Assembly (NCBI GenBank): GCA_043820105.1
Contig: JBDREC010000068.1
Coordinates: 1-47,132, forward strand
DNA from: JBDREC01 sp043820105 [NCBI: Pseudomonadota bacterium]
GTDB taxonomy: Bacteria; Bdellovibrionota_F; JAHFAK01
Direction of reading: 5' to 3'
DNA: 47,132 nucleotides
The notes below the pieces were generated by a model. That model was not told the origin of the DNA. It saw only the letters and a program-made list of their open reading frames with translations, and did not search any database. A program made the translations under genes and the position numbers. Positions 374 through 47,045 of this stretch are shown piece after piece. Every line of letters begins with the position of its first letter. Position 1 is the first letter of the stretch.

Positions 374-401
374 TTCAAAATTCAAAATTCAAAATTGAAA
401 T
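374..401. repeat. Tandem heptamer array, TTCAAAA type
   Basis: Three perfect TTCAAAA units are followed by a variant beginning TTG, in strict 7-base register, 65 bases before mnmA. The preceding stretch (about 290-360) is visibly richer in G and C than its surroundings, without an open frame or a clear hairpin. This array belongs to the set of period-7 arrays at gene borders in this window. Confidence 0.8.
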
Positions 402-465
402 GCAAAGAAAGGTTTTGAATTGCAAGTGTTAATATTATTAAGAATAATAAACTAAATTAAAAATT

Positions 466-1566
466 ATGAGTTTATCAAAAGGAAATACAAAATACGAAAT
501 ACGAGATACGAACCTCGTTGCTGTTGCTATGTCTGGTGGTGTCGATTCTTCTGCTGCTGCGGCCATTTTAAAGGAGCAGGGATATTCAGTTGTTGGAATT
601 AATTTAAGGCTTTGGGATCTTCCTGATCATCTTCAGGCTTCAAAGACTTGTTGCTCAACTGAAGATAGACGTGATGCTAAAACTGTTTGTGATATTCTTG
701 ATATTCCATTTAAACTTTTAGACTTGAGAAAAGAGTTTGAAAATCTTGTTATTGACAGCTTTGTTAGCGATTATAGACTTGGCAGAACTCCAAATCCATG
801 TATTTTATGTAATGAACATGTCAAATTTAAATTACTTTTTGACTATGCAAAAACCTTGGGCGCTAAATATTTAGCTACAGGTCATTATGTAAATAGAATT
901 GAAATTAACAAGCATTTTACCTTGTCTCGTGCAAAAGATTCAAAAAAAGACCAATCCTATTTTCTGTTTTCTATTTCACCTGAAAATCTTAAAAACATAA
1001 TATTTCCCAATGCTGATTTTACAAAAGATGAAATAAGAAATATTGCCCAAAAACATAAGCTTCCCATTTTCAAGAAAAATGATTCACAGGAAATTTGTTT
1101 TATTGAGGATAATAATCATCATCGATTTATTCGTGCTTATTTGAATATTGATAAAAAAGAAGAGGGCTATTTTGTAGATATTCATGGGAACAAACTTAAA
1201 AAACATGAAGGAATAGATAAATACACAATTGGTCAAAGACGAGGAATGGGCATTGCAAATTCAACACCTCTATATATATCAAACATTGATCAAAAGACAA
1301 ATCAAATTACAGTTTCTGATAAAAAATATTGTTATGCAAAAAATCTCAAAGCAAATAATGCCAATTGGTTTTTAAAAGTAGATCAAGAATTTAAAGCTCA
1401 GGCTAAAATTAGAAATAACCATGCTCAAGCCAACTGCACTGTGAAAATCTTATCAGAAACTTGCTTTGAATTAGAGTTTGAAGAAGAACAATTTGCGATT
1501 ACTCCAGGTCAGGCAGCAGTTGTTTATAAAGATGATATATTGCTTGGAGGAGGGTGGATTGAATAA
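466..1566 (+). CDS. mnmA: tRNA-specific 2-thiouridylase MnmA
   Basis: MnmA adenylates and then thiolates uridine 34 of Lys, Glu and Gln tRNAs in the cytosol, taking sulfur from a relay or a desulfurase. The PP-loop SGGVDSS lies at residues 23-29. The catalytic cysteine pair is Cys115, in PNPCILCN, and Cys211, in SQEICFIE. DQSYFL at 162-167 is also typical. The length, 366 residues, is normal for the family. There is no clear ribosome binding site before the ATG. Codons 6-17 come from a period-7 repeat (482-516), so the N-terminal tail of about 17 residues before VAVAMSGG is probably not ancestral and the start is uncertain. The 3' end overlaps mtaB by 8 bases, indicating translational coupling of two tRNA-modification genes. 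Confidence 0.96.
   Translation: MSLSKGNTKYEIRDTNLVAVAMSGGVDSSAAAAILKEQGYSVVGINLRLWDLPDHLQASKTCCSTEDRRDAKTVCDILDIPFKLLDLRKEFENLVIDSFVSDYRLGRTPNPCILCNEHVKFKLLFDYAKTLGAKYLATGHYVNRIEINKHFTLSRAKDSKKDQSYFLFSISPENLKNIIFPNADFTKDEIRNIAQKHKLPIFKKNDSQEICFIEDNNHHRFIRAYLNIDKKEEGYFVDIHGNKLKKHEGIDKYTIGQRRGMGIANSTPLYISNIDQKTNQITVSDKKYCYAKNLKANNANWFLKVDQEFKAQAKIRNNHAQANCTVKILSETCFELEFEEEQFAITPGQAAVVYKDDILLGGGWIE
482..516. repeat. Heptamer array inside the 5' end of mnmA
   Basis: Units GAAATAC, AAAATAC, GAAATAC and GAGATAC follow each other in exact 7-base register, with a decayed fifth unit starting GAACC. They lie 16 bases downstream of the ATG of mnmA and encode part of its N-terminal tail. Because 7 is not a multiple of 3, gain or loss of a unit would change the frame relative to that ATG. 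Confidence 0.75.
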
Positions 1567-2863
1567 GCAAACATTTGCCCTCTATACTCTAGGCTGCAGG
1601 ACGAATTCATATGATTCTGATCAAATAATTGGAAGCCTCATAAATGCAGGTTACAGCCAGGTTGACTTTGATAAAAAAGCTGATGTGTATGTTATCAATA
1701 CCTGCACAGTTACTTCAAAAACTGATGCTCAATCACGAAATATCATAAAAAGAGCTGTTAAAATGAATGATAAAGCTAAAGTTATTGTAACAGGTTGTTA
1801 TGTTGACAGAGATGCAAGTGAAATAGAGAATATAGAAGGTGTTACTTGTTTTATGGGTAATGATCATAAGAGTTTTATTGCCAGGATATTAGAAGATAAG
1901 AATTATAGTATAGAAAAAGAAATAAAGATAAATAGATTTTCATGGGCAGGTCCAGGGTCACGATTAACTCGTCCAAATTTAAAGATTCAAGATGGTTGTG
2001 ATAATGCTTGTTCATATTGTATTGTTCCAACAGTTAGAGGCAGTGAAGTTTCTTTGGAAAAAGATGAAGTTGTTAAAAGAATGATTGCCTATGCAGATAA
2101 TCAGGCAAAAGAATTAGTTTTAACAGGGATTCATATTGGCAGATATGGCAAGGATTTTTATGTCAATGAAAGTTTAGTGTCTCTTTTAAAATTAATGCTT
2201 TCAAGGATTGAGGAATTAGGATTAAGATTAAGATTGAGATTAAGTTCAATTGAGCCAGAAGAAATCAGTGATGAGTTGATTGAATTGGTGGCTGAAAGTC
2301 CTTATATATGCAAGCATTTTCATATTCCTTTGCAGTCAGGTTCAAATTCTATACTTAAAAAGATGAATAGAAACTATGAAGCTTCTATGTTTGCTGAATT
2401 AGTTCAGAAAATAAAAGCTAAAAATCCTGATATAGTTATTGGAACTGATATAATATGTGGGTATCCAGGGGAAAGTGATGAAGAATTCAAACAGACATAT
2501 GATTTTATTAAATCATTAGAGCTTTCATATGGCCATGTATTTCCTTATTCAGATAGACCTGGAACAAAGTCATTTGAGATAAAAGAAAAGGTTGATGACA
2601 GAATAAAGAAAGAAAGAGCAAAAGAATTAAGAGATCTTTTTAGTAGAAAGAAGCAAGAATTTTTAGATCTACAAATAAATAAGAAATTTGAAGTTTTGTT
2701 AGAAGAAAAGGAAAACTCTGCAACTGGCAATTTAACTGGCTTGTCGTCGAACTATATTCGGTTTTTAGTGGCTTCAGACAAAGAAAATAAAAACAATTTT
2801 GTTAATATAAAAGCTGTATCTATTATAAAAGAAGGGCTTATTAAAGGTGAAATAATTATTTAA
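1559..2863 (+). CDS. mtaB: tRNA (N6-threonylcarbamoyladenosine(37)-C2)-methylthiotransferase MtaB
   Basis: MtaB inserts a methylthio group at C2 of t6A37 in ANN-decoding tRNAs. The N-terminal UPF0004 domain carries its cluster cysteines at Cys13 (TLGCRTN), Cys49 (INTCTV) and Cys80 (VTGCY). The radical SAM CxxxCxxC is Cys147, Cys151 and Cys154. A TRAM-like domain closes the protein. I chose the TTG at 1559 because GGAGGAGGG lies just before it and LxxQTFALYTLGCRTN is the usual MtaB beginning; an upstream ATG would need a long unrelated extension inside mnmA. Length is 434 residues, normal for the family. Residues encoded by 2215-2244 form an alternating Leu-Arg run made by a hexamer repeat. 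Followed closely by rnc. Confidence 0.93.
   Translation: MNKQTFALYTLGCRTNSYDSDQIIGSLINAGYSQVDFDKKADVYVINTCTVTSKTDAQSRNIIKRAVKMNDKAKVIVTGCYVDRDASEIENIEGVTCFMGNDHKSFIARILEDKNYSIEKEIKINRFSWAGPGSRLTRPNLKIQDGCDNACSYCIVPTVRGSEVSLEKDEVVKRMIAYADNQAKELVLTGIHIGRYGKDFYVNESLVSLLKLMLSRIEELGLRLRLRLSSIEPEEISDELIELVAESPYICKHFHIPLQSGSNSILKKMNRNYEASMFAELVQKIKAKNPDIVIGTDIICGYPGESDEEFKQTYDFIKSLELSYGHVFPYSDRPGTKSFEIKEKVDDRIKKERAKELRDLFSRKKQEFLDLQINKKFEVLLEEKENSATGNLTGLSSNYIRFLVASDKENKNNFVNIKAVSIIKEGLIKGEIII
2215..2244. repeat. In-frame hexamer repeat within mtaB (ATTAAG type)
   Basis: Five consecutive hexamers of the ATTARG type (ATTAGG, ATTAAG, ATTGAG) encode an alternating Leu-Arg tract just before the conserved SSIEPEE. 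Since 6 is a multiple of 3 the frame is kept. The same GATTAA-like words form intergenic arrays at 40141-40164 and 42103-42126. Confidence 0.65.
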
Positions 2864-2877
2864 CATGGAGGTTATAA

Positions 2878-3618
2878 ATGGATTTTGACGATTTTAAAGG
2901 TCTTGAAAATGAATTAAAATATGATTTTGAGGATATGTCCTTATTAAAGAAGGCTTTAACTCATAAATCATATAAAAATGAAAAGAAAAACACTGAATTT
3001 CAAGACAATCAGCGCCTAGAGTTTTTAGGTGATTCAGTTTTATCTTTAGCAATTAGTGAGCATTTATTTAAAAATTACATGGACAAAAATGAAGGTTGGT
3101 TGTCAAAAGTGCGATCCTTGTTTGTTAAAGAAGACACTTTGTTTAAAATTTCTGAGAAAATACGAGTTGGTGATTATATTCTTTTAGGTAAAGGCGAAGA
3201 AGCCACAGGTGGCAGGAAAAAACCTTCAGTTTTAGCAGATGCCTTAGAAGCAATCATTGGTGCTATTTACCTGGATTCATCTCTAAAGAAAGCTATTTCT
3301 ATTGTTCATAAACTGTTTTCTGATGTTTTTGATGTTGTTGGAAAAGAAGGCTTCCATCCAGATATTATGACAGATTATAAAACTGTTTTACAAGAAGTTG
3401 TGCAAAAGTTTGTAAAAGAAGCTCCGAAATATCAGTTACTAGAAGAGATTGGACCTGATCATGCAAAAGTTTTTAAATCTGAAGTTTTAATTGAAGAAAA
3501 AAGATATGGGGTTGGAGAAGGTAAGAGCAAGAAAGAATCAGAGCAAAGTGCAGCTCAAGAAGCCTTGCAAAAGTATCAAGCTGTCCATAAAAATGAAGAT
3601 GATAAAGAATTTGAATAA
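2878..3618 (+). CDS. rnc: Ribonuclease III
   Basis: RNase III cleaves double-stranded RNA, chiefly rRNA precursors and structured mRNAs. The signature RLEFLGDSVL is at residues 46-55, with Glu48 and Asp52 of the catalytic set. Asp121 and Glu124 (LADALEAIIGA) complete the metal site. A double-stranded RNA-binding domain covers roughly residues 166-236, ending in the KKxSEQSAAQEAL helix. The length of 246 residues is normal. A strong GGAGG lies 7 bases before the ATG. It follows mtaB by 14 bases, so mnmA, mtaB and rnc look like one transcript devoted to RNA processing. Confidence 0.96.
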   Translation: MDFDDFKGLENELKYDFEDMSLLKKALTHKSYKNEKKNTEFQDNQRLEFLGDSVLSLAISEHLFKNYMDKNEGWLSKVRSLFVKEDTLFKISEKIRVGDYILLGKGEEATGGRKKPSVLADALEAIIGAIYLDSSLKKAISIVHKLFSDVFDVVGKEGFHPDIMTDYKTVLQEVVQKFVKEAPKYQLLEEIGPDHAKVFKSEVLIEEKRYGVGEGKSKKESEQSAAQEALQKYQAVHKNEDDKEFE

Positions 3619-3683
3619 AAAGTAATATTTTTTCTTGCATTTTTTTTTTAAGCAGACTAATTCAGATTCCACAAATTAAATTC

Positions 3684-3756
3684 GCGGGCGTAACTCAGTT
3701 GGTAGAGTGTCACGTTGCCATCGTGATTGTCGCCAGTTCGAATCTGGTCGCCCGCT
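3684..3756 (+). tRNA. tRNA-Gly, anticodon GCC
   Basis: The acceptor stem GCGGGCG pairs with CGCCCGC (3749-3755) and is followed by discriminator T, as expected for glycine. The D stem is ACTC/GAGT. The anticodon stem TCACG/CGTGA encloses the loop TTGCCAT, giving anticodon GCC at 3717-3719. The T arm has GCCAG/CTGGT with loop TTCGAAT. CCA is not encoded. A heptamer array begins 4 bases after the gene. Confidence 0.96.
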
Positions 3757-3759
3757 TTA

Positions 3760-3808
3760 GAGTATTGAGTATTGAGTATTGAGTCTTGAGTATTGAGTAT
3801 TGAGTAAT
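3760..3808. repeat. Tandem heptamer array, GAGTATT type
   Basis: Seven units in exact register: five GAGTATT, one GAGTCTT and one GAGTAAT, decaying into GGGTTTT. It starts 4 bases after the tRNA. The rest of the gap up to 4002 is AT-rich, with no open frame, hairpin or convincing promoter that I can see. Confidence 0.9.
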
Positions 3809-4002
3809 GGGTTTTGTGTGGTTGGGGGAAAAGTTGCTATTCTTTTCAAAAGAGCTTTTTTGACACCAATTAATTTCCTGAAATCTTTAGCTTATTCTAA
3901 AAAATCAAGTCATTTCAGTATCTTGCCTTAATATTAAGCCTTGGCATATTCTTTGCTATATTTTCACATTAAATTAAGTGTTATGATTTAAGCAATAGCT
4001 TT

Positions 4003-4135
4003 ACTTACGACTTACGACTTACGACTTACGACTTACGACTTACGACTTACGACTTACGACTTACGACTTACGACTTACGACTTACGACTTACGACTTACT
4101 GCTTACTGCTTACACCTTACCACTTACCACTTTCT
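4003..4135. repeat. Long tandem heptamer array, ACTTACG type
   Basis: Thirteen perfect ACTTACG units (4003-4093) are followed by six degenerate ones (ACTTACT, GCTTACT, GCTTACA and so on) that keep the 7-base register to 4135. It is the longest array in the window. It ends directly before the ribosome binding site of the next gene, so it occupies the 5' untranslated or promoter region of the gene at 4152. Confidence 0.95.
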
Positions 4136-4151
4136 CAAGGAGGGGATAGGT

Positions 4152-4832
4152 ATGAATAGCAAAGGAGAAGTTTCCTTTCATCGAAAAACTGTTGTTAAAA
4201 ATAAAGTTTTTCCTGATGCTATTAAAGATTATATTGCAACAAATGATTATCAAATATCATTTATGGACCTAAATAAAAATGATATTTTTGCCTGCTTTGG
4301 TTTTGGTCTTGGTGATATGATTAAATCTGTCTGTGAAAAAGTCAAAAAGGTTTATGCCTTTGATTTGGATCATAGTAATGTTGGAAAAATAAAAAAACAG
4401 CTCACAGAATTTTCTAATATTTATTTTAGACAAGAGAGTATGAGGGGAATTGATCTTAATTCGATTAATTTCTCAAAAGCTATAATAAGTGGAGCGTTAT
4501 CTGAGCTTTCTGATTATCAAAAAAGAATATTTATAAACAAATTATCAAGAGCAATGCCTATGGGGGGATTATTGCTTATTGAAGATAAGATGCTTGATTA
4601 TGATAAAACAAGTATTGAAGATGACTTTTTTCGAATTCTAGATGAAGCAAAAAGATATTATGGCTCCAATTGGAATAATGAAGCAGATGATTTTGTGATG
4701 ACTTTGAAGTTTAAATATATTTCAGAAAGAGATTATTTTCAAAGAATTTTAAATGAGGCCTCCTTTGATGTCTTAATTTCAGAGTCTGATTCTTCATTTT
4801 TTGGTAGAATTTTAGCAAAAAAATCTGTGTAA
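4152..4832 (+). CDS. SAM-dependent methyltransferase-like protein
   Basis: The 226-residue protein reads as a class I Rossmann methyltransferase. A first strand and glycine loop occur as FGFGLGD (about residues 50-56), and an acidic strand end as YAFDLD about 18 residues later. A fourth strand is KAIISGALSEL, followed by GGLLLIEDKM, and the C-terminal strands flank a DxxFFGRILAKK end. The substrate cannot be told. AAGGAGGGG lies 7 bases before the ATG, a strong site right after the 133-bp heptamer array. The gene stands alone. A 12-bp palindrome, GGCTTATAAGCC, follows the stop within 8 bases. Confidence 0.65.
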   Translation: MNSKGEVSFHRKTVVKNKVFPDAIKDYIATNDYQISFMDLNKNDIFACFGFGLGDMIKSVCEKVKKVYAFDLDHSNVGKIKKQLTEFSNIYFRQESMRGIDLNSINFSKAIISGALSELSDYQKRIFINKLSRAMPMGGLLLIEDKMLDYDKTSIEDDFFRILDEAKRYYGSNWNNEADDFVMTLKFKYISERDYFQRILNEASFDVLISESDSSFFGRILAKKSV

Positions 4833-4839
4833 AAATCAA

Positions 4840-4851
4840 GGCTTATAAGCC
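4840..4851. terminator. Palindrome after the methyltransferase-like gene, possible weak terminator
   Basis: GGCTTATAAGCC is a perfect 12-bp palindrome 8 bases after the stop codon, flanked by CAAGG and CCTTG, which could extend the stem imperfectly. No T-run follows, so intrinsic termination is doubtful. Confidence 0.3.
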
Positions 4852-4906
4852 CAACCCTTGGTTATGTTTACATCACATTATACATAAATAAAACCAACAT
4901 TTTTAT

Positions 4907-4935
4907 TTGACATATGAAGATCAATCATTTAATAC
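4907..4935 (+). promoter_or_regulatory. Candidate sigma-70-type promoter for the structured leader
   Basis: A perfect TTGACA (4907-4912) is separated by 17 bases from TAATAC (4930-4935). The -10 match is modest. It would start transcription near 4942, about 210 bases before the 45-residue basic protein gene and just before the foldable leader. Confidence 0.4.
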
Positions 4936-4966
4936 CAACCAGCGCTTTTGGATGAAGTAAATAAAT

Positions 4967-5127
4967 TATCAGTTATCTGGCCATTGTATGTTAAGAAAAT
5001 AGAGGTAATGGACACATGCTATGCCAACTGATAGTTGGATTTTATACATTGTTATAGCGGCAACCTAATTTAACATAGGTGGCCGCAAACTTTAGCAAGT
5101 GCAATAAAGCGCTAGCTAAAGCTTGCG
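4967..5127 (+). ncRNA. Candidate structured 5' leader (possible attenuator or autoregulatory RNA)
   Basis: Several complementary segments lie in order. Helix A is TATCAGTT (4967-4974) with AACTGATA (5026-5033); inside it GGC pairs with GCC and CCATT (4981-4985) with AATGG (5007-5011). Helix B, CCAAC-TGATA-GTTGG (5024-5038), shares bases with helix A, so the two exclude each other. Hairpin C pairs 5057-5067 with 5076-5086 (10 pairs, one mismatch, 8-base loop). Hairpin D pairs 5084-5096 with 5115-5127 (12 pairs, one mismatch, 18-base loop) and shares three bases with C. The next gene starts 28 bases later. The layout resembles a regulatory leader; no known riboswitch class is recognised. This covers most of the 323-base gap. 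Confidence 0.45.
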
Positions 5128-5155
5128 ACTAACAAGGAATTAACAGGAGAAGAAA

Positions 5156-5293
5156 ATGGCATCAAATACTAAAATAGTTAAAATAGTTAGAAAAAGAAAA
5201 AGAAAAAAAATGGGCGCACAAAGAAAAAAAGATAATGTTAAGTTTGGAACAACACCAAAGTTTCCTATTCATCCAGAACAGGTAACTGAATAA
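5156..5293 (+). CDS. Small very basic protein, 45 residues, possibly ribosome- or nucleic-acid-associated
   Basis: A short frame opens with ATG after AACAGGAGAAG, a good ribosome binding site, and encodes 45 residues. The N-terminal half is a lysine- and arginine-rich block (VRKRKRKKMGAQRKKD). The second half is less charged, with GTTPKFPIHPEQ. Size and composition recall small ribosomal or ribosome-associated proteins, but I do not recognise a named family. The structured leader upstream would fit autoregulation by an RNA-binding product; that is inference. The next gene starts 3 bases after its stop, so the two are probably co-translated. Confidence 0.7.
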   Translation: MASNTKIVKIVRKRKRKKMGAQRKKDNVKFGTTPKFPIHPEQVTE

Positions 5294-5296
5294 ACT

Positions 5297-6166
5297 TTGC
5301 CACTCGTTAGCGTAATTATCCCAACATATAATCGTTATCCTCTAGTTAATAATGCTATAGAATCTATTTTATCACAGAAATATGCGAAAAGGCTATCAGC
5401 TAGCAGCTTTCAGCCTTCAGCTAAGAAAGATATTTTCTACGAAATCATTGTAGTTGATGATGCTTCAAGTGATGAAACTTTTAATGAGTTATCAAATAAC
5501 AAGAAGATTAATTACATTAGATTAGATGCAAATAAGGGAGTTAGCAATGCTCGAAACATTGGAATAAAAGCAGCAAAAGGAGAATGGATAGCGCTTCTTG
5601 ATTCTGATGATACCTGGATGCCAGAAAAACTAAGCTACCAAATGGGTTATTTTCGTAAGCATAATAATATTAAGATATGCCAGACTGATGAAATTTGGAT
5701 CAGAAATGGCATGCGTGTAAACCCCAAAAATAAACATTCAAAGCCATCTGGATGGATCTTTGATAAAATACTTACTATGTGTCTTGTTTCACCTTCTGCT
5801 TCAATTATTTATAAAGAGGTTTTTGAAAAAATAGGATTTTTTGATGAAGATTTAGAGGTTTGCGAAGATTATGATTTTTGGATAAGAGCCTCTCTTTATT
5901 ATGAAATAAAATTTATTAATATGAAACTTATCACTAAAAATGGGGGTCACGAAGATCAACTATCAAGAAAACACTGGGGTATGGATAGATTTAGAATTCA
6001 ATCCCTAGAAAAAATACTTAGTACTTGTGAACTAAATGATGAACAAACTAAGCTTATAAAAAATGAGATTCTTAAAAAAGCTACTATTTTAAAAAATGGT
6101 GCTGAAAAAAGAGAAAATAAAGAGATCTTGGAAAAAATGAATAGTATAATTGTTAACTATAGTTGA
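5297..6166 (+). CDS. Family 2 glycosyltransferase with a repeat-derived insertion
   Basis: The 289-residue protein begins LVSVIIPTYNR, the typical GT-A start of family 2 enzymes, which transfer a sugar from a nucleotide donor. A first acidic pair is EIIVVDDAS (Asp54-Asp55) and the donor/metal motif is LLDSDD. NKGVSNARNIG is also typical, and EDYDFWIR gives a candidate catalytic-base region. The start is TTG, the only in-frame choice close to the conserved strand. Residues 30-44 (roughly AKRLSASSFQPSAKK) break the usual short link between the first helix and the second strand and are encoded by a heptamer array (5393-5420). It is likely part of envelope polysaccharide synthesis, though no other such genes lie nearby. 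Confidence 0.88.
   Translation: MPLVSVIIPTYNRYPLVNNAIESILSQKYAKRLSASSFQPSAKKDIFYEIIVVDDASSDETFNELSNNKKINYIRLDANKGVSNARNIGIKAAKGEWIALLDSDDTWMPEKLSYQMGYFRKHNNIKICQTDEIWIRNGMRVNPKNKHSKPSGWIFDKILTMCLVSPSASIIYKEVFEKIGFFDEDLEVCEDYDFWIRASLYYEIKFINMKLITKNGGHEDQLSRKHWGMDRFRIQSLEKILSTCELNDEQTKLIKNEILKKATILKNGAEKRENKEILEKMNSIIVNYS
5393..5420. repeat. Heptamer array inside the glycosyltransferase gene
   Basis: Four units in exact 7-base register (CTATCAG, CTAGCAG, CTTTCAG, CCTTCAG) are followed by a decayed unit CTAAGAA. They are read through as a Ser- and Ala-rich insertion. Units of the same design elsewhere in the window are intergenic. Confidence 0.8.
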
Positions 6167-6214
6167 CATGAGTTTATGATAAATATAAATAAGGAAACAA
6201 GTTGTTGTTAAAAT

Positions 6215-6249
6215 ACTTATAACTTACGACTTATGACTTATGACTTAAT
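6215..6249. repeat. Heptamer array, ACTTATG type
   Basis: Five units in register (ACTTATA, ACTTACG, two ACTTATG, ACTTAAT) lie just before the ribosome binding site of the YchJ-like gene. The word family matches the long array at 4003-4135. Confidence 0.85.
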
Positions 6250-6265
6250 AAAAACGGAGAAAACA

Positions 6266-6757
6266 ATGTCCAAATGTCCATGTCAAAGTGATCTTGATTA
6301 TAGTAAATGTTGTGAACCTTTAATTAAAGGCGAGCAAAAAGCTGAAACAGCTGAAGCCTTAATGAGATCAAGATATTCAGCTTATGTTAAAAACGAAATA
6401 AATTACATTGCTAGTACTCACCACAAAAGTGGCAGAGATGAGTTCGATCATGACACAGCTGACAAATGGAGTAAAGCAGCCAAGTGGGCTGGCCTTGAAA
6501 TCAGAAATAGGGAAAAAGGTACCAAGGATGATACTGAAGGTAAGGTTGAGTTTATAGCAAAATATTATTTAGAAGGCAAATTTCAGGCTCACCATGAAGA
6601 AGCAGAGTTTATAAAAGAAGAAGATGTCTGGTATTTCAAAGATGGTAATATGGTGGTAAATGAACCTGTAAAAAGAGAAGGCGAAAAAGTTGGAAGAAAT
6701 GATCCTTGTCCTTGTGGTTCTGGAAAAAAATTTAAAAAGTGCTGTATTAATAAATAA
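6266..6757 (+). CDS. YchJ-family protein with two SEC-C motifs (UPF0225)
   Basis: The 163-residue protein opens with [14 protein letters not shown] and closes with [16 protein letters not shown], the two zinc-binding SEC-C-like motifs that bracket an NTF2-like middle domain in the YchJ family. The middle part has the usual [22 protein letters not shown]. The molecular role of the family is not firmly known; SEC-C motifs bind zinc and in SecA contact SecB. I chose the ATG at 6266, which follows CGGAGAAA; an in-frame ATG at 6233 lies within the heptamer array. The gene stands alone. Confidence 0.92.
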
Positions 6758-6790
6758 ACCAATCAATAATACTAATTACATGTAATAGAA

Positions 6791-6818
6791 TTTTGGGTTT
6801 TGAATTTTGAATTTTAAA
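6791..6818. repeat. Heptamer array, TTTTGAA type
   Basis: Four units in register (TTTTGGG, two TTTTGAA, TTTTAAA) fill the gap between the convergent YchJ-like gene and queC. TTTTGAA is the reverse complement of the TTCAAAA word at 374-401. Confidence 0.85.
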
Positions 6819-6827
6819 TTGTATTTG

Positions 6828-7496: not shown

Positions 7497-7510
7497 ATTC
7501 TTCAAAACAT

Positions 7511-7566
7511 CCTTCCATATTCTCATATTCCCTTGTTCTCATGTTCCCTTGCGCTCTTGTTCCCCT
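7511..7566. repeat. Octamer array between queC and the radical SAM gene
   Basis: Seven 8-base units on the plus strand, mostly of the RTTCYCWT type (for example ATTCTCAT and GTTCCCTT), keep an exact 8-base register. The last units touch the stop codon of the radical SAM gene and the first lie just upstream of queC on the minus strand. Confidence 0.75.
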
Positions 7567-12348: not shown

Positions 12349-12376
12349 AATTAGAATTCAGAACTCAGAATTGGGT
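12349..12376. repeat. Heptamer array before the PAP2-like gene
   Basis: Units AATTAGA, ATTCAGA, ACTCAGA and ATTGGGT follow each other in 7-base register and end 12 bases before the chosen ATG. The last unit may supply the weak GGGTAAG ribosome binding site. Confidence 0.65.
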
Positions 12377-19029: not shown

Positions 19030-19064
19030 GGAGATTAAACAAGCATAAATTCCAATCTCAATTG

Positions 19065-19094
19065 TAATTCTAATCTTAATCCTAATCCTAATCT
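19065..19094. repeat. Hexamer array, TAATCY type
   Basis: Five hexamers in register (TAATTC, TAATCT, two TAATCC, TAATCT) lie in the short gap between two convergent genes and touch the stop codon of the RHS gene. Confidence 0.7.
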
Positions 19095-38371: not shown

Positions 38372-38461
38372 TTGATCTCCTGTTAATGATAATAGGTAGA
38401 TTTATTTACATTGAAATGTATATGGCTTGGGAAAAATAATGGCAAATGAAAATTGAATTAA

Positions 38462-38538
38462 GAGTTATGAGTGATGAGTTATGGGTAAAGAGTTAAGAGT
38501 TAAGAGTTAAGAGTTAAGGGTTATGAGTTATGGGTTAA
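38462..38538. repeat. Heptamer array, GAGTTAA/GAGTTAT type, 11 units
   Basis: Eleven units in exact 7-base register: four central GAGTTAA, flanked by GAGTTAT, GAGTGAT, GGGTAAA, GGGTTAT and GGGTTAA. The array lies in the promoter-side gap of the M16 gene. The rest of the 315-base gap holds the twin hairpin element at 38583-38657; nothing else is seen. Confidence 0.92.
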
Positions 38539-38657: not shown

Positions 38658-38686
38658 TGGCAGAAGGTGCAATTTCGTAATGAGAA

Positions 38687-39184: not shown

Positions 39185-39234
39185 AGGTTTGTCCCTCATA
39201 CATGTGTTAATTAAACTTGAGGATATATAATGCG

Positions 39235-39663
39235 TTAGACGCGAGATGTCAACAATAAAATGGTGCCATAATATATTTTCCCGGGCCATTTTCCGGGTTT
39301 TTCTTGTTTTATCATCCCACCATAGACTTTACTGGTATCGCTTAATTTTAAAATAAATTTTAGGTTTTCTAGATGCTTGAAAAAGATCTTTTCAGCTTTT
39401 TCATTTATAGAAAAATCATATCCAACATAAAAATAGATTTCATTATTCTCCACAAACCCCCGAACAATTTCATCGAAAACCTTGTCATTTTGATCTCTTA
39501 TAAAACCTTTTTCAATAAACCATTCAGCATGGGATAGAGTGCTTTTCTCAGGAGCAATAAAAAGCTGATTATCAACAATTGCAAACATTCGTCTTTTACA
39601 ATGAAAATCTTTCACTTCCTTTTGATTTCCATCTATCCCATATTTCTCATCAACTTTCTTCAT
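39235..39663 (-). CDS. Unknown soluble protein, 142 residues
   Basis: The predicted protein is a mixture of strands and helices with the segment FAIVDNQLFIAPEKSTLSHA near the start and KVYGGMI near the end. No membrane or signal segment. I do not recognise the family. Codon use resembles that of its neighbours. The start lies directly at the edge of a hexamer array, which supplies the only purine-rich stretch (GAGATTAAG) upstream. It reads toward the secreted-protein gene, 50 bases away, and the two may be co-transcribed. Confidence 0.6.
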   Translation of the reverse strand: MKKVDEKYGIDGNQKEVKDFHCKRRMFAIVDNQLFIAPEKSTLSHAEWFIEKGFIRDQNDKVFDEIVRGFVENNEIYFYVGYDFSINEKAEKIFFKHLENLKFILKLSDTSKVYGGMIKQEKPGKWPGKIYYGTILLLTSRV

Positions 39664-39666
39664 CTT

Positions 39667-39703
39667 AATCTCAATCTTAACCTTAAGTCATAATCTTAAT
39701 CTC
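39667..39703. repeat. Imperfect hexamer array, AATCTY type
   Basis: Units AATCTC, AATCTT, AACCTT and AATCTT alternate in near 6-base register, with one 7-base slip. It borders the start of the gene ending at 39235. Confidence 0.6.
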
Positions 39704-40086: not shown

Positions 40087-40140
40087 ATTAGTTTATGAAT
40101 GTGACTCTTGATTTGATAATAAAATTACAGTAAAATTTAG

Positions 40141-40164
40141 ATTAAGATTAAAATTGAGATTAGG
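40141..40164. repeat. Hexamer array, ATTARG type
   Basis: ATTAAG, ATTAAA, ATTGAG and ATTAGG follow each other in 6-base register. They are the same words that are embedded in mtaB at 2215-2244. They lie just past the end of the four-helix-bundle pseudogene. Confidence 0.7.
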
Positions 40165-40168
40165 ATAA

Positions 40169-40507
40169 TTATCTCATTTTGCTGAGCATTTTAACGATTT
40201 GAAGGAGTTGATCTTTAAACTAGAAATATTCTTGATCTGATAAAAGATTAAATGATTCTAAAAGATCGAAGATGGCTGAAGATTCTGAAGCAGAGCCTTT
40301 AGCTATCTCAAAAAATCGCTTTCTTTCCACTGTCGATTTTCTATAAACACCTTCAGCTAGATTTAAGACGATGCTAGAAATTGCTCTTTTCAATTGATCA
40401 TTCAAGTAAGCATATCCCCTTGGCAGCTTTTTTGCAAAAGCCCGATTCGCTTCTTTTGAAACACTTAAACTCATTTGGTAACACTTAAGATTTTCATGAA
40501 TTAACAT
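40169..40507 (-). pseudogene. Four-helix-bundle protein (S23/IVS family) interrupted by an amber codon
   Basis: The frame starts at an ATG 9 bases after GGAGG. It encodes a typical TIGR02436 protein: LPRGYAYLNDQLKRAISSIVLNLAEG, RKSTVERKRFFEIAKGS. After 95 residues a TAG (40220-40222) stops it at SDQEYF. In the same frame the sequence goes on as FKDQLLQIVKMLSKMR to a TAA at 40169, which is the usual C-terminal helix and restores a normal length of about 113. A single C-to-T change from CAG would explain it. Family members occur in 23S rRNA intervening sequences and resemble the Avd protein of diversity-generating retroelements; no reverse transcriptase is present here. Confidence 0.8.
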
Positions 40508-40513
40508 AGTCAC

Positions 40514-40573
40514 TGACCTCCATAATTTAATTTGTCTTGCACAGTTAAAAGACAAATTAAATTATGGAGGTCA
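40514..40573. repeat. Perfect 23-bp inverted repeat between two divergent four-helix-bundle genes
   Basis: The segment 40514-40536 is the exact reverse complement of 40551-40573, around a 14-base spacer. Each arm contains the GGAGG ribosome binding site of the gene that runs outward from it. The arms mark the start of an inverted duplication. Confidence 0.92.
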
Positions 40574-40575
40574 AA

Positions 40576-40845
40576 ATGTATTACATGAATCATGAAAAGT
40601 TTAAGTGTTACAATGAGCTAGTTGAACTTTCAAAAGAAGTGAATGGGCCTGCAAAAAAGATGCCAAGGGGATATGCATATCACGGGGATCAATTGAAAAG
40701 AGCCCGTATTTCTTCAATCTTAAATCTAGCTGAAGTCTGTGCTTGTCTTGATTGTCTTAATTCTGTTGATCTTATCACTAATTCTAATTTCTTAAATCTT
40801 AAGTCCAGATTCAATTCCATCTATTCAATGATCTTCAAACTATAA
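40576..40845 (+). pseudogene. Truncated inverted copy of the four-helix-bundle gene
   Basis: The reading starts at an ATG 5 bases after GGAGGTCAA. Residues 5-53 parallel the minus-strand gene (HEKFKCYNELVELSKEV, KKMPRGYAYHGDQLKRA, ISSILNLAE), with shared DNA runs such as GCCAAGGGGATATGC. After LNLAE, at about 40734, similarity stops abruptly and the frame continues into AT-rich, TAATC-like sequence to a chance stop. Two of the four helices are missing, so the product is unlikely to fold as the family does. Confidence 0.75.
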
Positions 40846-40865
40846 TAATAAAAATAAAAAATTAA

Positions 40866-41135: not shown

Positions 41136-41294
41136 TTAAATTTATTTTGTGCAACTTAAAATAAAGATCTTAATCGCAATTATATTACAAAATTCAAAAT
41201 ATAAAAAGTAACAAGTCCGTCTGATTGTTATTCAGTAGAAGATACTTGCATGGATCTCAATCCGTCATTATAATCTTAATTCTTAATCTTTTAA

Positions 41295-42009
41295 CTATTT
41301 TTTTAATCCATTTACAGTAATCATTGTTCTCCACTTAAGTTGCTTTGAATAAACAGCATTATACCACATCCAATAAAAGCGATCTGCATTGAAATATGTG
41401 ATGCCATCTTGATTGCCATCAATTCTGTCATAGGGATCAGCAAAGATTAAAATATCATCATCTATTTCTTTAGTTCCAACATCATCATACCCCAAAACGG
41501 TGACATAATGCCCCCCCCCAATCTGACCAGAGAACAATCGTTGGATTATTGTTATTTATATTTTCATATAGCTTTGTAAGTTGAGAGTAATCTTCCTTTG
41601 TTTCATAGCTAAGGTTTGCAACAAATCCATTATATTTAAGCCACTTGATAATATTTGCTTCTCTAGTTCCTGGAAGCTCACCTTTTGGAATGTTTTCAAA
41701 GCCATTGGTTTTAATTTCCTTGGCAAATTTCATTTCTGTTTTTTTGGTTTGAGGGTATTTGTCCTTATTATAAAATGAAGCAACAGATAATAAAGCTGCA
41801 GGGCCACAAGTATAGTCAGTTGTTTGTTGGAATGAAATAAATTTTTCATAATCTTTAATCATTGTTGCAGTTTTATTTAAATTCTTTTGCTTAAATTTTG
41901 CTTTTCCTAAATAGGGATTTTTGCTAGCGCAGGAAGAAAAGATAAAGATTGAGATTATGATAATGATTATTCCTAAAATACTAAATAACTTTTTAGAGAT
42001 TATTTTCAT
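41295..42009 (-). pseudogene. C39-like cysteine peptidase lipoprotein split at a G9 tract
   Basis: Two frames join into one protein. The first begins at the ATG at 42009 with a lipoprotein signal (Cys27 after IFIFSS) and holds the catalytic Cys68 in TDYTCGPAALLSVASFY. It reaches VLWSDWGG at a run of nine G (41511-41519) and then leaves frame. With eight G the reading would continue as WGGHYVTVLGYDD, giving the catalytic His, followed by FADPYD and a normal end at 41295. So one base in a homopolymer decides between full and truncated product. It may be phase variable, a mutant, or a sequencing error. Confidence 0.8.
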
Positions 42010-42102
42010 AATTGTAATTTCATATTGCTGAATAATAATTTCTTCTATAATTGCAGATTTCAATTAAATCAATAGATTTTTTATCACAATGATTATGTAT
42101 CA

Positions 42103-42126
42103 GATTATGATTTTGATTAGGATTAA
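42103..42126. repeat. Hexamer array, GATTAN type
   Basis: GATTAT, GATTTT, GATTAG and GATTAA follow each other in 6-base register in the gap before malQ. Confidence 0.65.
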
Positions 42127-42221
42127 GATATTTATGGATCTATTTAAATTGACAATTCGCTAAAATTTGGAAGAAAGCTTATTATAAACCATTTTTAAAG
42201 TAATTATAATTATGAGGATAT

Positions 42222-43817
42222 ATGCAGCACATAACTGAAAAGCAAAGACTTCGCTCAGCTGGAATTATCTTGCATCCAACATCCCTGCCAAGCGAGTTTG
42301 GAATAGGGGACTTGGGTCCATCACTTTACAAGTTCCTTGATTTCACGGCAAAAGCTGATCTTACATTGTGGCAAGTTCTTCCCTTGAGCCCTGCTGATAC
42401 CGTTGGTTGTCCTTATGTTAGCTGGTCGTCGATTTCTGGAAATACTTTATTAATTGATCCTATTAATCTAAAGGATTTAGGTCTTATTGAGCAGTCTGAC
42501 CTTGAGCATGAAGAATTTGATCATGCTAAAGTTGATTTTGAAATAGTGCAAGCTTACAAAATTCCTTTGTTAAAAAAAGCTGCAAGCTCCTTGATGGAAA
42601 AAGCAAATAAAGATCTCTTTGATGAATTTCAGACTTTTAAAAAAGAAAATGAAGAGCTTTTTAATCATTGTCTTTATTCAGTAATAAAAGATCAGAATGA
42701 ACAAAAACCATGGTGGCAATGGTCTCAAGAACTTAAAAGGCCAATTAAAATAGTAATCAATGAATTGAAAAATAAATATGCTCAAGAAATAGATATATAT
42801 TTAGCAATGCAATTTCTGTTTTTTAGGCAGTGGAACTTTGTGAAAAAAGCCTGTGAAGATAAGTCTATTTCTATAATTGGCGATATCCCAATTTATGTGT
42901 CACGTGACAGTGCTGATGCCTGGCTTAATCAAAATATCTTTAAGATTGATGAAGAAGGCAATCCATCACATGTTTCAGGGGTTCCACCTGATGCTTATGC
43001 AAAAAAAGGACAGCTTTGGAACACTCCGGTTTATGATTGGGAAAAGCTTAAAAAAACTAACTATGACTGGTGGATCAGAAGAATCACAGGTCTTTTAAAA
43101 ATTTGTCATATTGTTAGAATCGACCATTTCAGAGCCTTTTCAGCCTATTGGGAAATTCCAGCAGTACAAGAAGACGCTAGGCTTGGAAAATGGGTAGAAG
43201 GTCCTGGCAAGCATTTTTTTGAAGCTATGAAAAAGCATTTTGGCTTTTTACCATTTATTGTTGAAGACCTTGGTGAAATTGATCTTAAAACAGATGAGCT
43301 TAGAACCTCATGCAATCTTCCAGGCTCAAAAGTTTTACAATTTGCTTTTGGAGGCGGTTCCTGGAATCCACACCTTCCTCACAATTATGATAAAAGGTCT
43401 GTAGCTTATACAAGTACCCATGATAGTGAAACCATGAAACAGTATTGGTCAAATGCTCCTGAACATGCAAAAGAAGAAGCCTCAACATATTTGCACTCAA
43501 ATGATGGGAACTTTGTTTGGAGAGCAATTGATGCAGTATTTGCTTCAGTGTCAGATTTTGCAATAATTCCTTTGCAGGATTTTTTAGTGCTTGGTGCTGA
43601 GGCAAGAATGAACATTCCAGGAACAGTTTCAAAAGATAATTGGTCTTGGAGGATGCGAAAAGAAGATATGAGTGATGATCTTGCTATTAGCATAAAAAGA
43701 AAAATTAATCTTTATGGAAGAAATCCAAAGATTAAAAAAGACGATCCCTTTTGTCCTGATGTGACCTCTGAAGACTGGAACAAAAAACATGAAAAACTCT
43801 TAAAGGAAATTGGCTGA
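42222..43817 (+). CDS. malQ: 4-alpha-glucanotransferase (amylomaltase, GH77)
   Basis: MalQ moves alpha-1,4-glucan segments between maltodextrins, for glycogen or maltose metabolism in the cytosol. The catalytic nucleophile is Asp301 (VRIDHFRAF), the acid/base Glu348 (IVEDLG) and the third carboxylate Asp401 (TSTHDSET). SGVPPDAYAKKGQLWNTPVYDW is the usual substrate loop. The 531 residues are normal for the family. A GAGG lies 7 bases before the ATG. No other glycogen gene is nearby. The GNAT gene starts directly at its stop. Confidence 0.97.
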   Translation: MQHITEKQRLRSAGIILHPTSLPSEFGIGDLGPSLYKFLDFTAKADLTLWQVLPLSPADTVGCPYVSWSSISGNTLLIDPINLKDLGLIEQSDLEHEEFDHAKVDFEIVQAYKIPLLKKAASSLMEKANKDLFDEFQTFKKENEELFNHCLYSVIKDQNEQKPWWQWSQELKRPIKIVINELKNKYAQEIDIYLAMQFLFFRQWNFVKKACEDKSISIIGDIPIYVSRDSADAWLNQNIFKIDEEGNPSHVSGVPPDAYAKKGQLWNTPVYDWEKLKKTNYDWWIRRITGLLKICHIVRIDHFRAFSAYWEIPAVQEDARLGKWVEGPGKHFFEAMKKHFGFLPFIVEDLGEIDLKTDELRTSCNLPGSKVLQFAFGGGSWNPHLPHNYDKRSVAYTSTHDSETMKQYWSNAPEHAKEEASTYLHSNDGNFVWRAIDAVFASVSDFAIIPLQDFLVLGAEARMNIPGTVSKDNWSWRMRKEDMSDDLAISIKRKINLYGRNPKIKKDDPFCPDVTSEDWNKKHEKLLKEIG

Positions 43818-44234
43818 ATGAAGATAGAAATAAAATTTGTCAATTCCTGGCCCACAAAAGAAATCATTGATCTTTATAAAGCAGGGGCTTGGTGGTATGA
43901 AGAAAATAATGCAAAAAGGCTTCCTCGAATGATTGAAAACTCGTTTGCCTTTGCTGTTGCAGTGGACAAAGAAACAAAAAAAGCAATAGGAATGGGGCGA
44001 GTGATTTCAGATGGAGTTTCTGATGCCTATATTCAAGATGTTGTTGTGATGAAAGAATATCGCTCACAAGGAATTGGAAAAGAAATACTAACTAACTTAA
44101 TCAATTTCTGCAAAGCACATAAAATGGAATGGATTGGGCTAATCGCTGATGGTGACTCATACAAGTTATATGAAAAATTAGGCTTCCAAGAAATGAAAAA
44201 CCACAAGGCAATGCTTCTTTCTTCTAGTAATTAA
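43818..44234 (+). CDS. GNAT-family N-acetyltransferase
   Basis: The 138-residue protein carries a GNAT fold; the acetyl-CoA-binding motif is VVMKEYRSQGIGKEIL (about residues 76-91), followed by the motif B strand and KLYEKLGFQEM. The substrate cannot be told. Its ATG directly follows the malQ stop (TGA-ATG), so it is translationally coupled. It overlaps the convergent membrane-protein gene by 11 bases. Confidence 0.9.
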   Translation: MKIEIKFVNSWPTKEIIDLYKAGAWWYEENNAKRLPRMIENSFAFAVAVDKETKKAIGMGRVISDGVSDAYIQDVVVMKEYRSQGIGKEILTNLINFCKAHKMEWIGLIADGDSYKLYEKLGFQEMKNHKAMLLSSSN

Positions 44235-44703
44235 TTGCTTTCAGCATCATAGGTATAATAATCGCCAGAAAAGCTAAAGTCATAATAGGGCGCAAAATGT
44301 TTGTGATTTTATAGTTTTTATCTTTTATGGCAGTATAAGCGTGATTAGTTGATGAAAGAACTAAAAAAGATGATAACACAGTGATTATCGTAAGGTCAGC
44401 GAATAAACCCCAATTTAAAACAAATGAAATTATTGCAGCAATAGTTATTGCCAGGCTGTATAAAGCTGATTGAACTTGATAAGCTCTACTTGGAGTATAT
44501 CCAATTTTAGCTGATGCAAATTCTCCTAAAATTAAACCCTCAAAAGCTATTGTTCCAGAAAAGCCTATGATTATTAAAATGGCCATATAATGAAAAGCTT
44601 CAACAGGGTGGGCAGCTAGATAATTTGAAATAAATATAGCCAAGAAGATAATAAAAAACCTAAAATATTCTATGTATTTTGTGCATCTCGCTTTCCAGCT
44701 CAT
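44224..44703 (-). CDS. Integral membrane protein, unknown
   Basis: The 159 residues contain about five hydrophobic segments. FEGLILGEFASAKIGYTPSR lies between the second and third. No family is recognised with certainty. GGAG precedes the ATG by 7 bases. It follows cvfB on the same strand after a 93-base gap. Confidence 0.6.
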   Translation of the reverse strand: MSWKARCTKYIEYFRFFIIFLAIFISNYLAAHPVEAFHYMAILIIIGFSGTIAFEGLILGEFASAKIGYTPSRAYQVQSALYSLAITIAAIISFVLNWGLFADLTIITVLSSFLVLSSTNHAYTAIKDKNYKITNILRPIMTLAFLAIIIPMMLKAINY

Positions 44704-44796
44704 TTTAATTCTCCAATTAATAAATTATTTAATGGCAAATATTAATAAATTAATTGTGAAATATCAAATGAACAATTGCAAGTTTCAAAACTCAAT

Positions 44797-45645
44797 CTAT
44801 TTCCTTTTGAATAACTTTAACTCAATACCTTCTTTAGTTATTTGTATTTTTCTATCTTTATAAAGCATGCCTATTGCTTTTTTAAAAGTTTGCTTGCTCA
44901 TGCCCAGCGTTTCTTTAATGGCCCCTGGCGAACTTTTATCATTTAGGCTTGATTTACCATCATTTTTTTTAAGAAAAATTATGATTTTATCTTTTGCTTC
45001 AAAAGGATTTTTATGTCCTTGAGCTTGTAAGGCAGCATCAACAAGGCCATCTTCTCTGAGCTTTTTTACAACTCCAGAGTAAGTGTCACCAATTTTAATT
45101 TGTTGAAAGATTTCATTTTTATAAATTAATCCAACAAACTTTTTGTTGATTACAACTTTATAACCTAAATTAGTGGCAAGAACTGGAACTATATTAATTT
45201 CATCACCCTGGGCAATATCAAAAAAAGATGCCTCAATATGTTTGCCTAGTTTAGTTGTTCCAAAGATTCTATTTGTTGATTCTTCTAAGCATACCCTTAC
45301 AAGGTGATATTCATTTTTTTCCACCTTAACTCTTTGCTCATTTCCTGGAACTAAAAGATCTTTTTCAAGACCCCAGTCAAAAAAAGCACCGAAATCCTGG
45401 ACATCAACTGCTTTTAATAAAGCATACTCACCAACGCAAGCATGTGGTATGTCAGGTGTAGCTATTAGGGTGCCTTTTGTAGTATGATAAACAAAAGCCT
45501 TCATTTTCATGCCAAGTTTAGTCATTAGTGGTGTCATTTGAGATGGCATTAAAACTTCATCATCTGAAGAAATGCTTTGCAGATAGAAACCTGCTTCTGT
45601 TTCTCTGTTAACTATAAAGTCGCTGACTTGTCCAACTGCAATCAT
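44797..45645 (-). CDS. cvfB: CvfB-like S1-domain RNA-binding protein
   Basis: The 282-residue protein has the CvfB/YitL layout: two to three S1-type beta barrels (residues 1-210, with VDVQDFGAFFDWGLEKDLLVP as the clearest) and a C-terminal winged helix (SPGAIKETLGMSKQTFKKAIGMLYKDRKI). In Firmicutes CvfB binds RNA and affects virulence-factor expression. GGAG lies 5 bases before the ATG. It follows greB on the same strand after 52 bases, so the two may share a transcript. Confidence 0.92.
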   Translation of the reverse strand: MIAVGQVSDFIVNRETEAGFYLQSISSDDEVLMPSQMTPLMTKLGMKMKAFVYHTTKGTLIATPDIPHACVGEYALLKAVDVQDFGAFFDWGLEKDLLVPGNEQRVKVEKNEYHLVRVCLEESTNRIFGTTKLGKHIEASFFDIAQGDEINIVPVLATNLGYKVVINKKFVGLIYKNEIFQQIKIGDTYSGVVKKLREDGLVDAALQAQGHKNPFEAKDKIIIFLKKNDGKSSLNDKSSPGAIKETLGMSKQTFKKAIGMLYKDRKIQITKEGIELKLFKRK

Positions 45646-45697
45646 GAAATCTCCTTTGAATAGAAAATAATGAAATCAATATTTCGAGTGATATTAT

Positions 45698-46174
45698 TTA
45701 ACAATAAACTACTTTAACAATGGATAATTCAATTAAACCATTAGGGGCTTTAACCTCAACATCATCTCCGACCTTGCGACCAAGCAAGGCTTTGCCAATG
45801 GGTGAAGTCCAACTAATCCTGCCAAGGCCTGCTTCAGTTTCATCAATTCCAACAATTTGATAAGTCTTAAAATCGCCATCTTCATTTTCAACTGTAACTG
45901 TTGCACCAAAGACAATGACATCAGACTTTTGTTTTTTAGGATCAATAATTTGAATAAGATCCATTCTTTTAATAAGAAAACGAATGCGTTTATCTATTTC
46001 TCGAAGCCGTTTTTTCCCATAAATATAATCACCATTTTCAGAACGATCACCATTTCCAGCAGCCCAGGCCACAACTTCCACAACCTTAGGACGTTCATCA
46101 TTAAGCAAAAAGCTCAACTCATCCCGCAGCTTTTTTTCACCTGCTGGTGTTATATAATTGGGTCTGCTGTTCAT
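45698..46174 (-). CDS. greB: Transcription elongation factor GreB
   Basis: GreB rescues backtracked RNA polymerase by stimulating cleavage of the transcript. The coiled-coil tip GDRSENGDYIYGKKRLREID gives the two acidic residues (Asp43, Glu46) needed for this. DYIYGKKRLREIDKRIRFL identifies GreB rather than GreA. The C-terminal domain ends with SPIGKALLGRKVGDDVEVKAP. At 158 residues it is complete. The ribosome binding site is weak. Confidence 0.96.
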   Translation of the reverse strand: MNSRPNYITPAGEKKLRDELSFLLNDERPKVVEVVAWAAGNGDRSENGDYIYGKKRLREIDKRIRFLIKRMDLIQIIDPKKQKSDVIVFGATVTVENEDGDFKTYQIVGIDETEAGLGRISWTSPIGKALLGRKVGDDVEVKAPNGLIELSIVKVVYC

Positions 46175-46225
46175 AGGTTTAATGTATTTGTTTATTAATA
46201 TGAACCCCTGATAGTGGAAAATTAG

Positions 46226-46516
46226 TTATTGGTCAAGAGGAGAAGTTGTCTGTTCAAAAATATACGCAATTTCCATCAGTATGTTTAATGCATATGGATG
46301 AATTTGTGCTAGTTCGCTTTCACCAAATTCAAATTGTTTGTGGATGTAATAATCTTCATCTTTGTTTTTCTCATCTAATGTCATGAAAATCTTATCGCTA
46401 AACAAGTTATCCAGCAAATCAAGTGCCAGTTTGCCATTTAGCCATTTTTCATCCCAAATTACTTGACAATGAATACTATGGAATTGTATATTTACATCAT
46501 ATTTAAGTAAAAGGAT
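46226..46516 (-). pseudogene. 5'-truncated unknown gene
   Basis: A frame of 96 codons opens after stops at about 46517-46522 and ends at a TAA. It reads well as protein (VIWDEKWLNGKLALDLLDNL, YYIHKQFEFGESELAQIHPY, ALNILMEIAYI), yet the first start-like codon in frame is a TTG one third of the way in, with no ribosome binding site. I infer the loss of the 5' end. The break coincides with the start region of the plus-strand ORF at 46522. No family recognised. Confidence 0.45.
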
Positions 46517-46521
46517 TTATC

Positions 46522-46869
46522 ATGAAAAGCAAATCATTATATTGGGTTCGTCCGTGACTACAATCATTGGGAAGCAAAGACACAAGTTTATTAGGATGTG
46601 TAAGTGGCTCAGGAAACTCTAGTGGAACTAGTTGGAATGCTTGTTGTTATTCAGGCACTAGTGCTAATGTAGAAGGTGTTGAATTATGCTACAGTGGCAA
46701 CTCTAACAATCAGACTAGCTACGCTTTTTATTGTGCTACAGGTACAGGTAATGATGGAGAATTGGGATGTAGTAGTGGTAGCGATTATTATTATACCAAC
46801 CCAGGAGCAAATTGTTCCAGCGGTGCTTCAAATTCTCCAACTGTTTGCGGGACTGGTGGCGTGAGGTAG
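46522..46869 (+). CDS. Cys-rich C-x-[S/T]-G repeat ORF with an in-frame UGA at codon 12
   Basis: AAGGA lies 6 bases before an ATG that opens MKSKSLYWVRP, then TGA at 46555, then continues in the same frame to a stop at 46867-46869. After the TGA come about 103 residues rich in Gly, Ser, Asn and Cys. Seven C-x-[S/T]-G motifs (CVSG, CYSG, CYSG, CATG, CSSG, CSSG, CGTG) recur every 11-16 residues, and one site has a double Cys. There is no other good start; a TTG at 46567 lacks a ribosome binding site. It may be a pseudogene with one nonsense change, a recoded UGA, or a chance arrangement. No family recognised. Confidence 0.45.
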
Positions 46870-47024
46870 CGAAAAGTTTGCCTAACCTATGTATTATTCC
46901 CTCGTTTTTTTATTAATTATTAAACCTACCCTATTGCGTAATGATTTTAATTAGATTCTGCCTAAAAAGTGGGCAAAATAAATTGTAAAATACCTTATGT
47001 ACCTTATGTACGGAGGTGCAAACC

Positions 47025-47045
47025 TTTCCAGATTCCAGAATCCAA
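47025..47045. repeat. Heptamer array near the right edge
   Basis: TTTCCAG, ATTCCAG and AATCCAA are in 7-base register. Just upstream, ACCTTATGT is tandemly duplicated (46992-47009). The last 263 bases of the window otherwise show no gene. Confidence 0.55.

Follow-up and report, generated by a model that had tools for sequence, protein, structure and literature searches.

The stretch analysed here (the window, 47,132 bases at 31.5% GC, contig JBDREC010000068.1 of JBDREC01 sp043820105) has the gene content of a bacterial chromosome, with ordinary genes such as mnmA, mtaB, rnc, a tRNA-Gly gene, queC, a gene for a GspE-like ATPase and others. Tandem arrays with a period of seven bases lie among these genes, mostly in the gaps between them, and the repeated word differs from one array to another (Table 1). 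These arrays, and similar ones in viral contigs and cyanobacterial plasmids, are the subject of this analysis.

The arrays were detected by local scoring (match +1, mismatch -2) with periods 4-12 treated alike, and chance was modelled by 60 order-3 Markov simulations in which coding and non-coding parts were generated separately. At a score of at least 13 the window contains seven arrays of period 7, three of period 6 and none of periods 4, 5 and 8-12, while the simulations gave at most one period-7 array at this score. At score 11 the numbers are eight for period 7, four for period 6 and 0 to 3 for the others (zero for periods 4, 5, 8, 10 and 11). Tandem Repeats Finder (TRF) recovered these arrays too, together with two further, weaker rows of period 7 at 957 (within mnmA) and 47026. 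Exact runs of at least 18 matches number four at lag 7; among the other lags from 4 to 15 the only such run, at lag 14, is the 4003 array. The period-6 arrays and near-arrays (2215-2241, 19060-19093, 39657-39686, 40131-40166 and 42103-42129) are variants of one word (ATTAAG/CTTAAT), unlike the several words of period 7, and they occur in coding (mtaB, 2215) as well as in non-coding DNA.

Table 1. Period-7 arrays of the window. The strand given is the one that holds more G than C.
Word	Position	Strand	Units	Location and remarks
AATTCAA/TTTTGAA	365..400	-	5.1	65 bases upstream of mnmA
GAAATAC	482..512	+	4.4	within 5' end of mnmA frame
GAGTATT	3760..3806	+	6.7	3 bases past tRNA-Gly
ACTTACG	4003..4132	-	18.6	initial 97 bases perfect, rest degenerate; 19 bases upstream of a methyltransferase-like gene (weak Pfam match)
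GCTATCA, degenerate	5392..5423	-	4.6	in glycosyltransferase gene; score 11, borderline
ACTTATG/ACTTACG	6215..6247	-	4.7	18 bases before YchJ-like gene (start 6266)
TTTTGAA	6788..6820	+	4.7	between convergent ychJ-like and queC
GAGTTAA/GAGTTAT	38458..38538	+	11.6	86 bases before PreP-like peptidase start (- strand)

An earlier, sequence-only reading of the window had listed nine arrays of strict period 7. Eight were recovered, seven of them with scores of 14-105 and the one at 5393 at the borderline; the ninth, a supposed ATTCAGA array at 12356..12374, amounts to about two units only, is absent from the TRF and scoring lists and was rejected. The period itself is real beyond chance, but several arrays are imperfect, so "strict" does not stand. 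Further arrays of period 6 or 8 had also been mentioned, and those of period 6 were confirmed, whereas period 8 is represented only by weak TRF rows. A lag-7 signal stronger than that of the neighbouring lags was found in part: in the intergenic DNA of the window the autocorrelation at lag 7 (0.321) exceeds that at lags 5 (0.297) and 8 (0.292) but not that at lag 6 (0.324), and coding DNA has no lag-7 excess (0.278). The proposed enrichment between genes was borne out, with 6 of the 8 arrays in the 12.6% of the DNA that is non-coding (P-value = 9e-5). Of these 6 intergenic arrays, 5 are no more than 70 bases from a gene border, as had been proposed for most arrays, but this does not go beyond chance (3.8 of 6 for random non-coding placement, P-value = 0.29). 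The YchJ-like start at 6266 used in Table 1 is our own choice, and an alternative start at 6233 falls inside the array.

The two remaining arrays lie within coding frames. The array at 482 encodes N-terminal residues of MnmA ahead of the family model, the best match to which begins at residue 18. In the region of alignment, the glycosyltransferase with the 5392 array exceeds the TuaG, WcaA and MftF models by 12-14 residues, and alignments with solved structures give no sharp position for an insertion.

For comparison, a collection of environmental viral contigs was searched for three copies of the words ACTTAYG, GYATTCA and GAGTTAW, and 6, 21 and 31 stretches were found, respectively. The preference for these words is not absolute, because three copies of TAGYATC, a control word made of the letters of ACTTAYG, gave 13 stretches against the 6 of ACTTAYG itself (a second such control, TACATGY, gave 1). 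The comparison set consists of 72 loci with 710,513 bases, from which the control loci (L031-L044), distant homologues (L094-L124) and four near-identical copies were left out. Period 7 accounts for 234 arrays in this set and no other period for more than 11, a figure biased upward because the loci were picked by a heptamer word or by kinship to such a contig. Arrays whose word differs from the searched (seed) word by at least two bases number 41 in 201 kb of GYATTCA contigs and 29 in 294 kb of GAGTTAW contigs; in ACTTAYG contigs (4 in 63 kb) they hardly exceed the controls (3 in 117 kb for TAGYATC, 0 in 14 kb for TACATGY). TGA or TCA is present in 32 of the 68 distinct non-seed words (16.4 expected, z = 5), but no grammar of heptamer words is claimed, because words within one contig are not independent.

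Two viral contigs were gene-tested, and phage families were found in both (Phage_tail_S, DUF3164 and a sub-threshold GemA in L051, a terminase domain in L017). Positions 1-12692 of L051 carry phage genes together with 18 period-7 arrays (score of at least 11) in 12.7 kb, which occur in most of the gene gaps. Three cyanobacterial plasmids (1.09 Mb), unselected by word, hold 33 period-7 arrays at score 12 and 0 to 7 of other periods; AATTCAA, a word of the window, is present in both orientations in the plasmid of Trichormus variabilis. The search for relatives of the window itself by way of MnmA gave a single match, a distant Flaviflexus locus.

Change of the word under a constant step was observed among related viral contigs. 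L017 and L024 share 86-94% identity over aligned pieces and have arrays at matching places, and the word at one shared site is AGGGGTC in L017 and AGGGACG in L024. At four array sites the two differ in length by 84 and 14 bases, which are multiples of 7, and by 152 and 83 bases, which are not; length differences at array sites of L058, L065 and L074 are 14, 21 and 35 bases. Taken over all comparisons, into which related and duplicate loci enter repeatedly, array length differs at 68 of 82 array sites, and at 21 of these the difference is a multiple of 7; control sites differ in 44 of 796 cases, 2 of them by such a multiple. Similarly, the junction that follows the terminase stop codon holds period-7 arrays (score of at least 9) in L076, L077, L078, L080, L081, L082 and L086 (L076 and L078 being the contigs of L017 and L024), with words that include TGAATGC, TGAATGA, TGAAGGA and CAGGGGC. 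A degenerate trace was seen by eye in L079, no array at score 9 was detected at this junction in L083, L084, L085 and L087-L092, and L093 stops short of it. The terminase-bearing contigs provide an aligned series that shows word change at one junction. Of the homologues that are further removed (L094-L124, 31 loci), one contains a period-7 array at score 13. Composite arrays, in which two different heptamer words are combined with a like spacer, were seen in L011 (6828, 7204 and 8299) and L070 (902, 2628 and 3922).

The position of the arrays relative to genes was then considered. Gene borders were taken from our own simple gene caller, which was rewritten after a weak first polarity test and is in this sense a post hoc choice; with the poor gene calls of that first test, the coding strand gave 23 C:17 G at starts and 33 G:24 C at stops. 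In the 72 loci, 186 of the 234 arrays are in the sequence outside genes, which makes up 16.9% of the DNA. Arrays outside genes hug the borders: 52% of 210 such arrays are at most 10 bases away, compared with 21% for random placement, and the median distance is 9.5 bases (43 for random placement). In 14 contigs, 23 arrays start within a stop codon, at its first or second base (TGA 11, TAG 6, TAA 6).

When each array is read on the strand leading outward from the gene, G exceeds C far more often than the reverse (107:34 for arrays at most 30 bases from a border, those of the window among them; 34:8 by contig, P-value = 7e-5; 33:8 with a slightly different border assignment). The polarity is present at stops (74:25), at starts (33:9) and at stops between convergent genes (14:3; 8:2 by contig, P-value = 0.11), and it persists for genes of at least 450 bases and for non-seed words alone (72:22; 27:5 by contig). 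It leans the same way at all distance limits examined (15, 30, 60 and 1000 bases) and with no limit (143:67). Array-free borders lack the G/C bias (coding strand, 181 G:179 C at stops and 233 G:194 C at starts), and arrays of other periods (9:4) are too few for comparison. Within the window the G-rich strand points outward in 5 of the 6 intergenic arrays, the exception being that at 6791, and in 2 of the 3 that are within 30 bases of a border. These counts suggest that in viral contigs such arrays often have their start on a stop codon and are oriented away from the gene. In the literature searched, neither outward polarity nor stop-codon starts turned up as a general finding, which is not proof of absence.

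The arrays of the window are probably heptanucleotide simple sequence repeats (SSRs) of a lineage with active tandem gain and loss of 7-base steps, for which slippage is the likeliest process. A point mutation would alter one unit, and later 7-base duplications and deletions would spread the variant along the array, so that the register is kept while the word drifts. Such drift was shown in the relatives of other contigs, and we infer it for the window. The fixed step with a free word, as the sequence-only reading had put it, thus gains support from other contigs, both from the word change at one junction and from the length differences that are multiples of 7. That arrays are found mainly outside genes would be due to the shift of the reading frame by a 7-base step, and the stop-codon starts fit an expansion that proceeds as far as the last base tolerated by the gene. 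If the seed contained TGA or TAG, the strand leading away from the stop would hold G but little C, in line with the polarity at stops. For the polarity at starts the seed offers no reason; avoidance of start codons may contribute but does not suffice, since the outward lean persists for words whose two strands are equal in start-codon content (28:9; 15:6 by contig, P-value = 0.08). As for the step of seven bases, the published guess is slippage in a step that corresponds to the stretch of DNA in contact with the polymerase (PMC4679880, PMC4692102).

Several observations weigh against this explanation. Slippage as such does not predict the outward polarity at starts, and 48 of the 234 arrays are inside called genes. 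Indels of other lengths contribute as well, since 47 of the 68 length differences are no multiple of 7. Three copies of GYATTCA, which is not a window word, were found in 0 of 396 genomes in the phylum of Flaviflexus, and the process is therefore not apparently a general property of bacterial polymerases. Additionally, the composite arrays with a like spacer, three each in L011 and L070, indicate that copying between junctions evidently occurs too.

A selected function was considered as an alternative and appears rather unlikely. Under this explanation the arrays would be RNA or DNA signals at borders, such as stem-loops that end or protect transcripts, upstream regions free of start codons, or backup stops, and selection would keep period, place and orientation. 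The outward polarity, its persistence in non-seed words and its absence from array-free borders all favour a function. Neighbouring arrays at most 100 bases apart favour it as well, since 30 of 52 pairs are inverted-related and 6 are direct, and the G-rich arm comes first in 27 of the 30 (15 loci). However, the candidate of hairpin arms co-varying pair by pair was rejected, as the match of an arm to its own partner does not surpass its match to the partners from other pairs of that contig (better in 19 cases, worse in 18). Avoidance of start codons is not enough for the reason given above, and stops between convergent genes lean outward too. Published repeats are divided on this point: GGGAATC often forms convergent pairs in Xanthomonas (PMC4692102), and TAACTGA points toward the start codon in 147 of 170 sets (PMC4679880), but polarity is not shown by the strand counts for aligned genes with GGGAATC in Xanthomonas (G-rich strand the same in 30-35%, opposite in 35%) or for GGGGATT in Nostoc (opposite in 34%, the same in 18%; PMC4692102). 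It is also missing overall from the cyanobacterial plasmids (31 skewed intergenic arrays, 15:16; 6:3 within 30 bases), unlike in the viral contigs.

The alternative that a single repeat element, or a few of them, dispersed by copying between sites and drifted afterwards is unlikely. The composite arrays argue for it, arms in one contig are alike beyond their own pair, and like words occur in contigs spanning 23-70% GC. In the window, ACTTAYG and TTCAAAA occur twice each, the latter once inverted (the word at 6788 is an inverted copy of that at 365), yet the same-word arrays share no flanks on inspection by eye and word relatedness is no better than in letter permutations (P-value = 0.065). Moreover, the junction after the terminase stop retains its array while the word changes. 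The view that the arrays are not the spread of one element, put forward in the earlier reading, is therefore only partly upheld, in light of the composite copying and the two recurring words. Chance low-complexity sequence in AT-rich DNA, with which 31.5% GC and the nearly pure A/T words of some arrays would agree, is refuted by the Markov simulations and the empty neighbouring periods and is extremely improbable.

The tandem heptamers of Cyanobacteria are named STRR, and the parallel drawn with them from the sequence holds, since period 7 far outnumbers other periods in the three plasmids and AATTCAA is among their words. Several words per replicon are common to the window and these plasmids. 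Heptanucleotides are the leading class of long SSRs, and slippage tied to polymerase contact length has been proposed (Mrazek 2007, as given in PMC4679880 and PMC4692102). Heptamer repeats have been published for Cyanobacteria, Beggiatoaceae and Xanthomonas (PMC4679880, PMC4692102); Calothrix, Nostoc and Microcystis are mentioned for tandem heptamers (PMC4692102, PMC4679880), and Microcystis has a range of repeating heptamers within one genome (PMC4679880). TAACTGA is found in Beggiatoaceae, some Cyanobacteria and Bacteroidetes, its sets are interrupted by related heptamers, it takes a single orientation ahead of starts in a Beggiatoaceae genome, and related Cyanothece strains differ mostly by 7-base steps (PMC4679880). 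GGGAATC in Xanthomonas is mostly intergenic and closer to the upstream gene (PMC4692102).

The window arrays are a further case of this published kind of heptamer repeat, because the heptamer class, multiple words, convergent pairs and orientation toward starts have all been described. Like heptanucleotide long SSRs, they are tandem 7-base units longer than chance, with period 7 as the leading class and a concentration outside genes. The TAACTGA repeats likewise stand mostly before start codons in one orientation, with sets split by related heptamers; they have one dominant word, whereas the window has several, none of which is TAACTGA in the TRF output. The GGGAATC and GGGGATT repeats are likewise mostly intergenic heptamers but have G-quadruplex words, while the period-7 consensus units of the window contain no GGG or CCC, and GGG occurs only in single units at 6791 and 38458. 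Word drift at an orthologous junction, stop-codon starts and outward polarity, all from viral contigs, set the present data apart from the available portions of the long-SSR papers. Border-hugging, stop-codon starts and the outward G-rich reading are new to us; the heptamer class and the slippage idea were already published.

In a broader and more doubtful reading, some bacteria and phages would have a mechanism locked to 7-base steps at gene borders, with a start on the stop codon, a drifting word, a C-poor and G-rich strand outward, and convergent pairs. This reading is weakened because the published strand counts of Xanthomonas and Nostoc lack polarity. If it were true, the single-word repeats of Beggiatoaceae and Xanthomonas would be related to this process. 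Their period, placement and polarity would then suggest a single enzyme in common, or else a step linked to where translation or transcription ends. The reason why seven is the preferred long-unit step in bacteria has apparently been only a guess since 2007, as far as the available portions of the sources go. Should the stop-codon starts and the outward polarity hold up in annotated genomes, a plain slippage model would have to satisfy these simple constraints.

Other features of the window were also noted. A small ORF (open reading frame) rich in Gly, Ser, Asn and Cys, with a TTG start and no Pfam match, is present at 46567-46869. A repeat of period 8 and period 16 at 7516-7564 (CATATTCT, CTCATGTTCCCTTGCG) covers the beginning of queC together with the gap that separates it from the neighbouring gene. 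At 40220-40845, a 23S_rRNA_IVP-family gene (- strand) lies opposite an inverted partial copy of its own DNA, the ORF of which lacks a Pfam match, and the gene and its copy flank a perfect 25-base inverted repeat (40514-40538 / 40549-40573).

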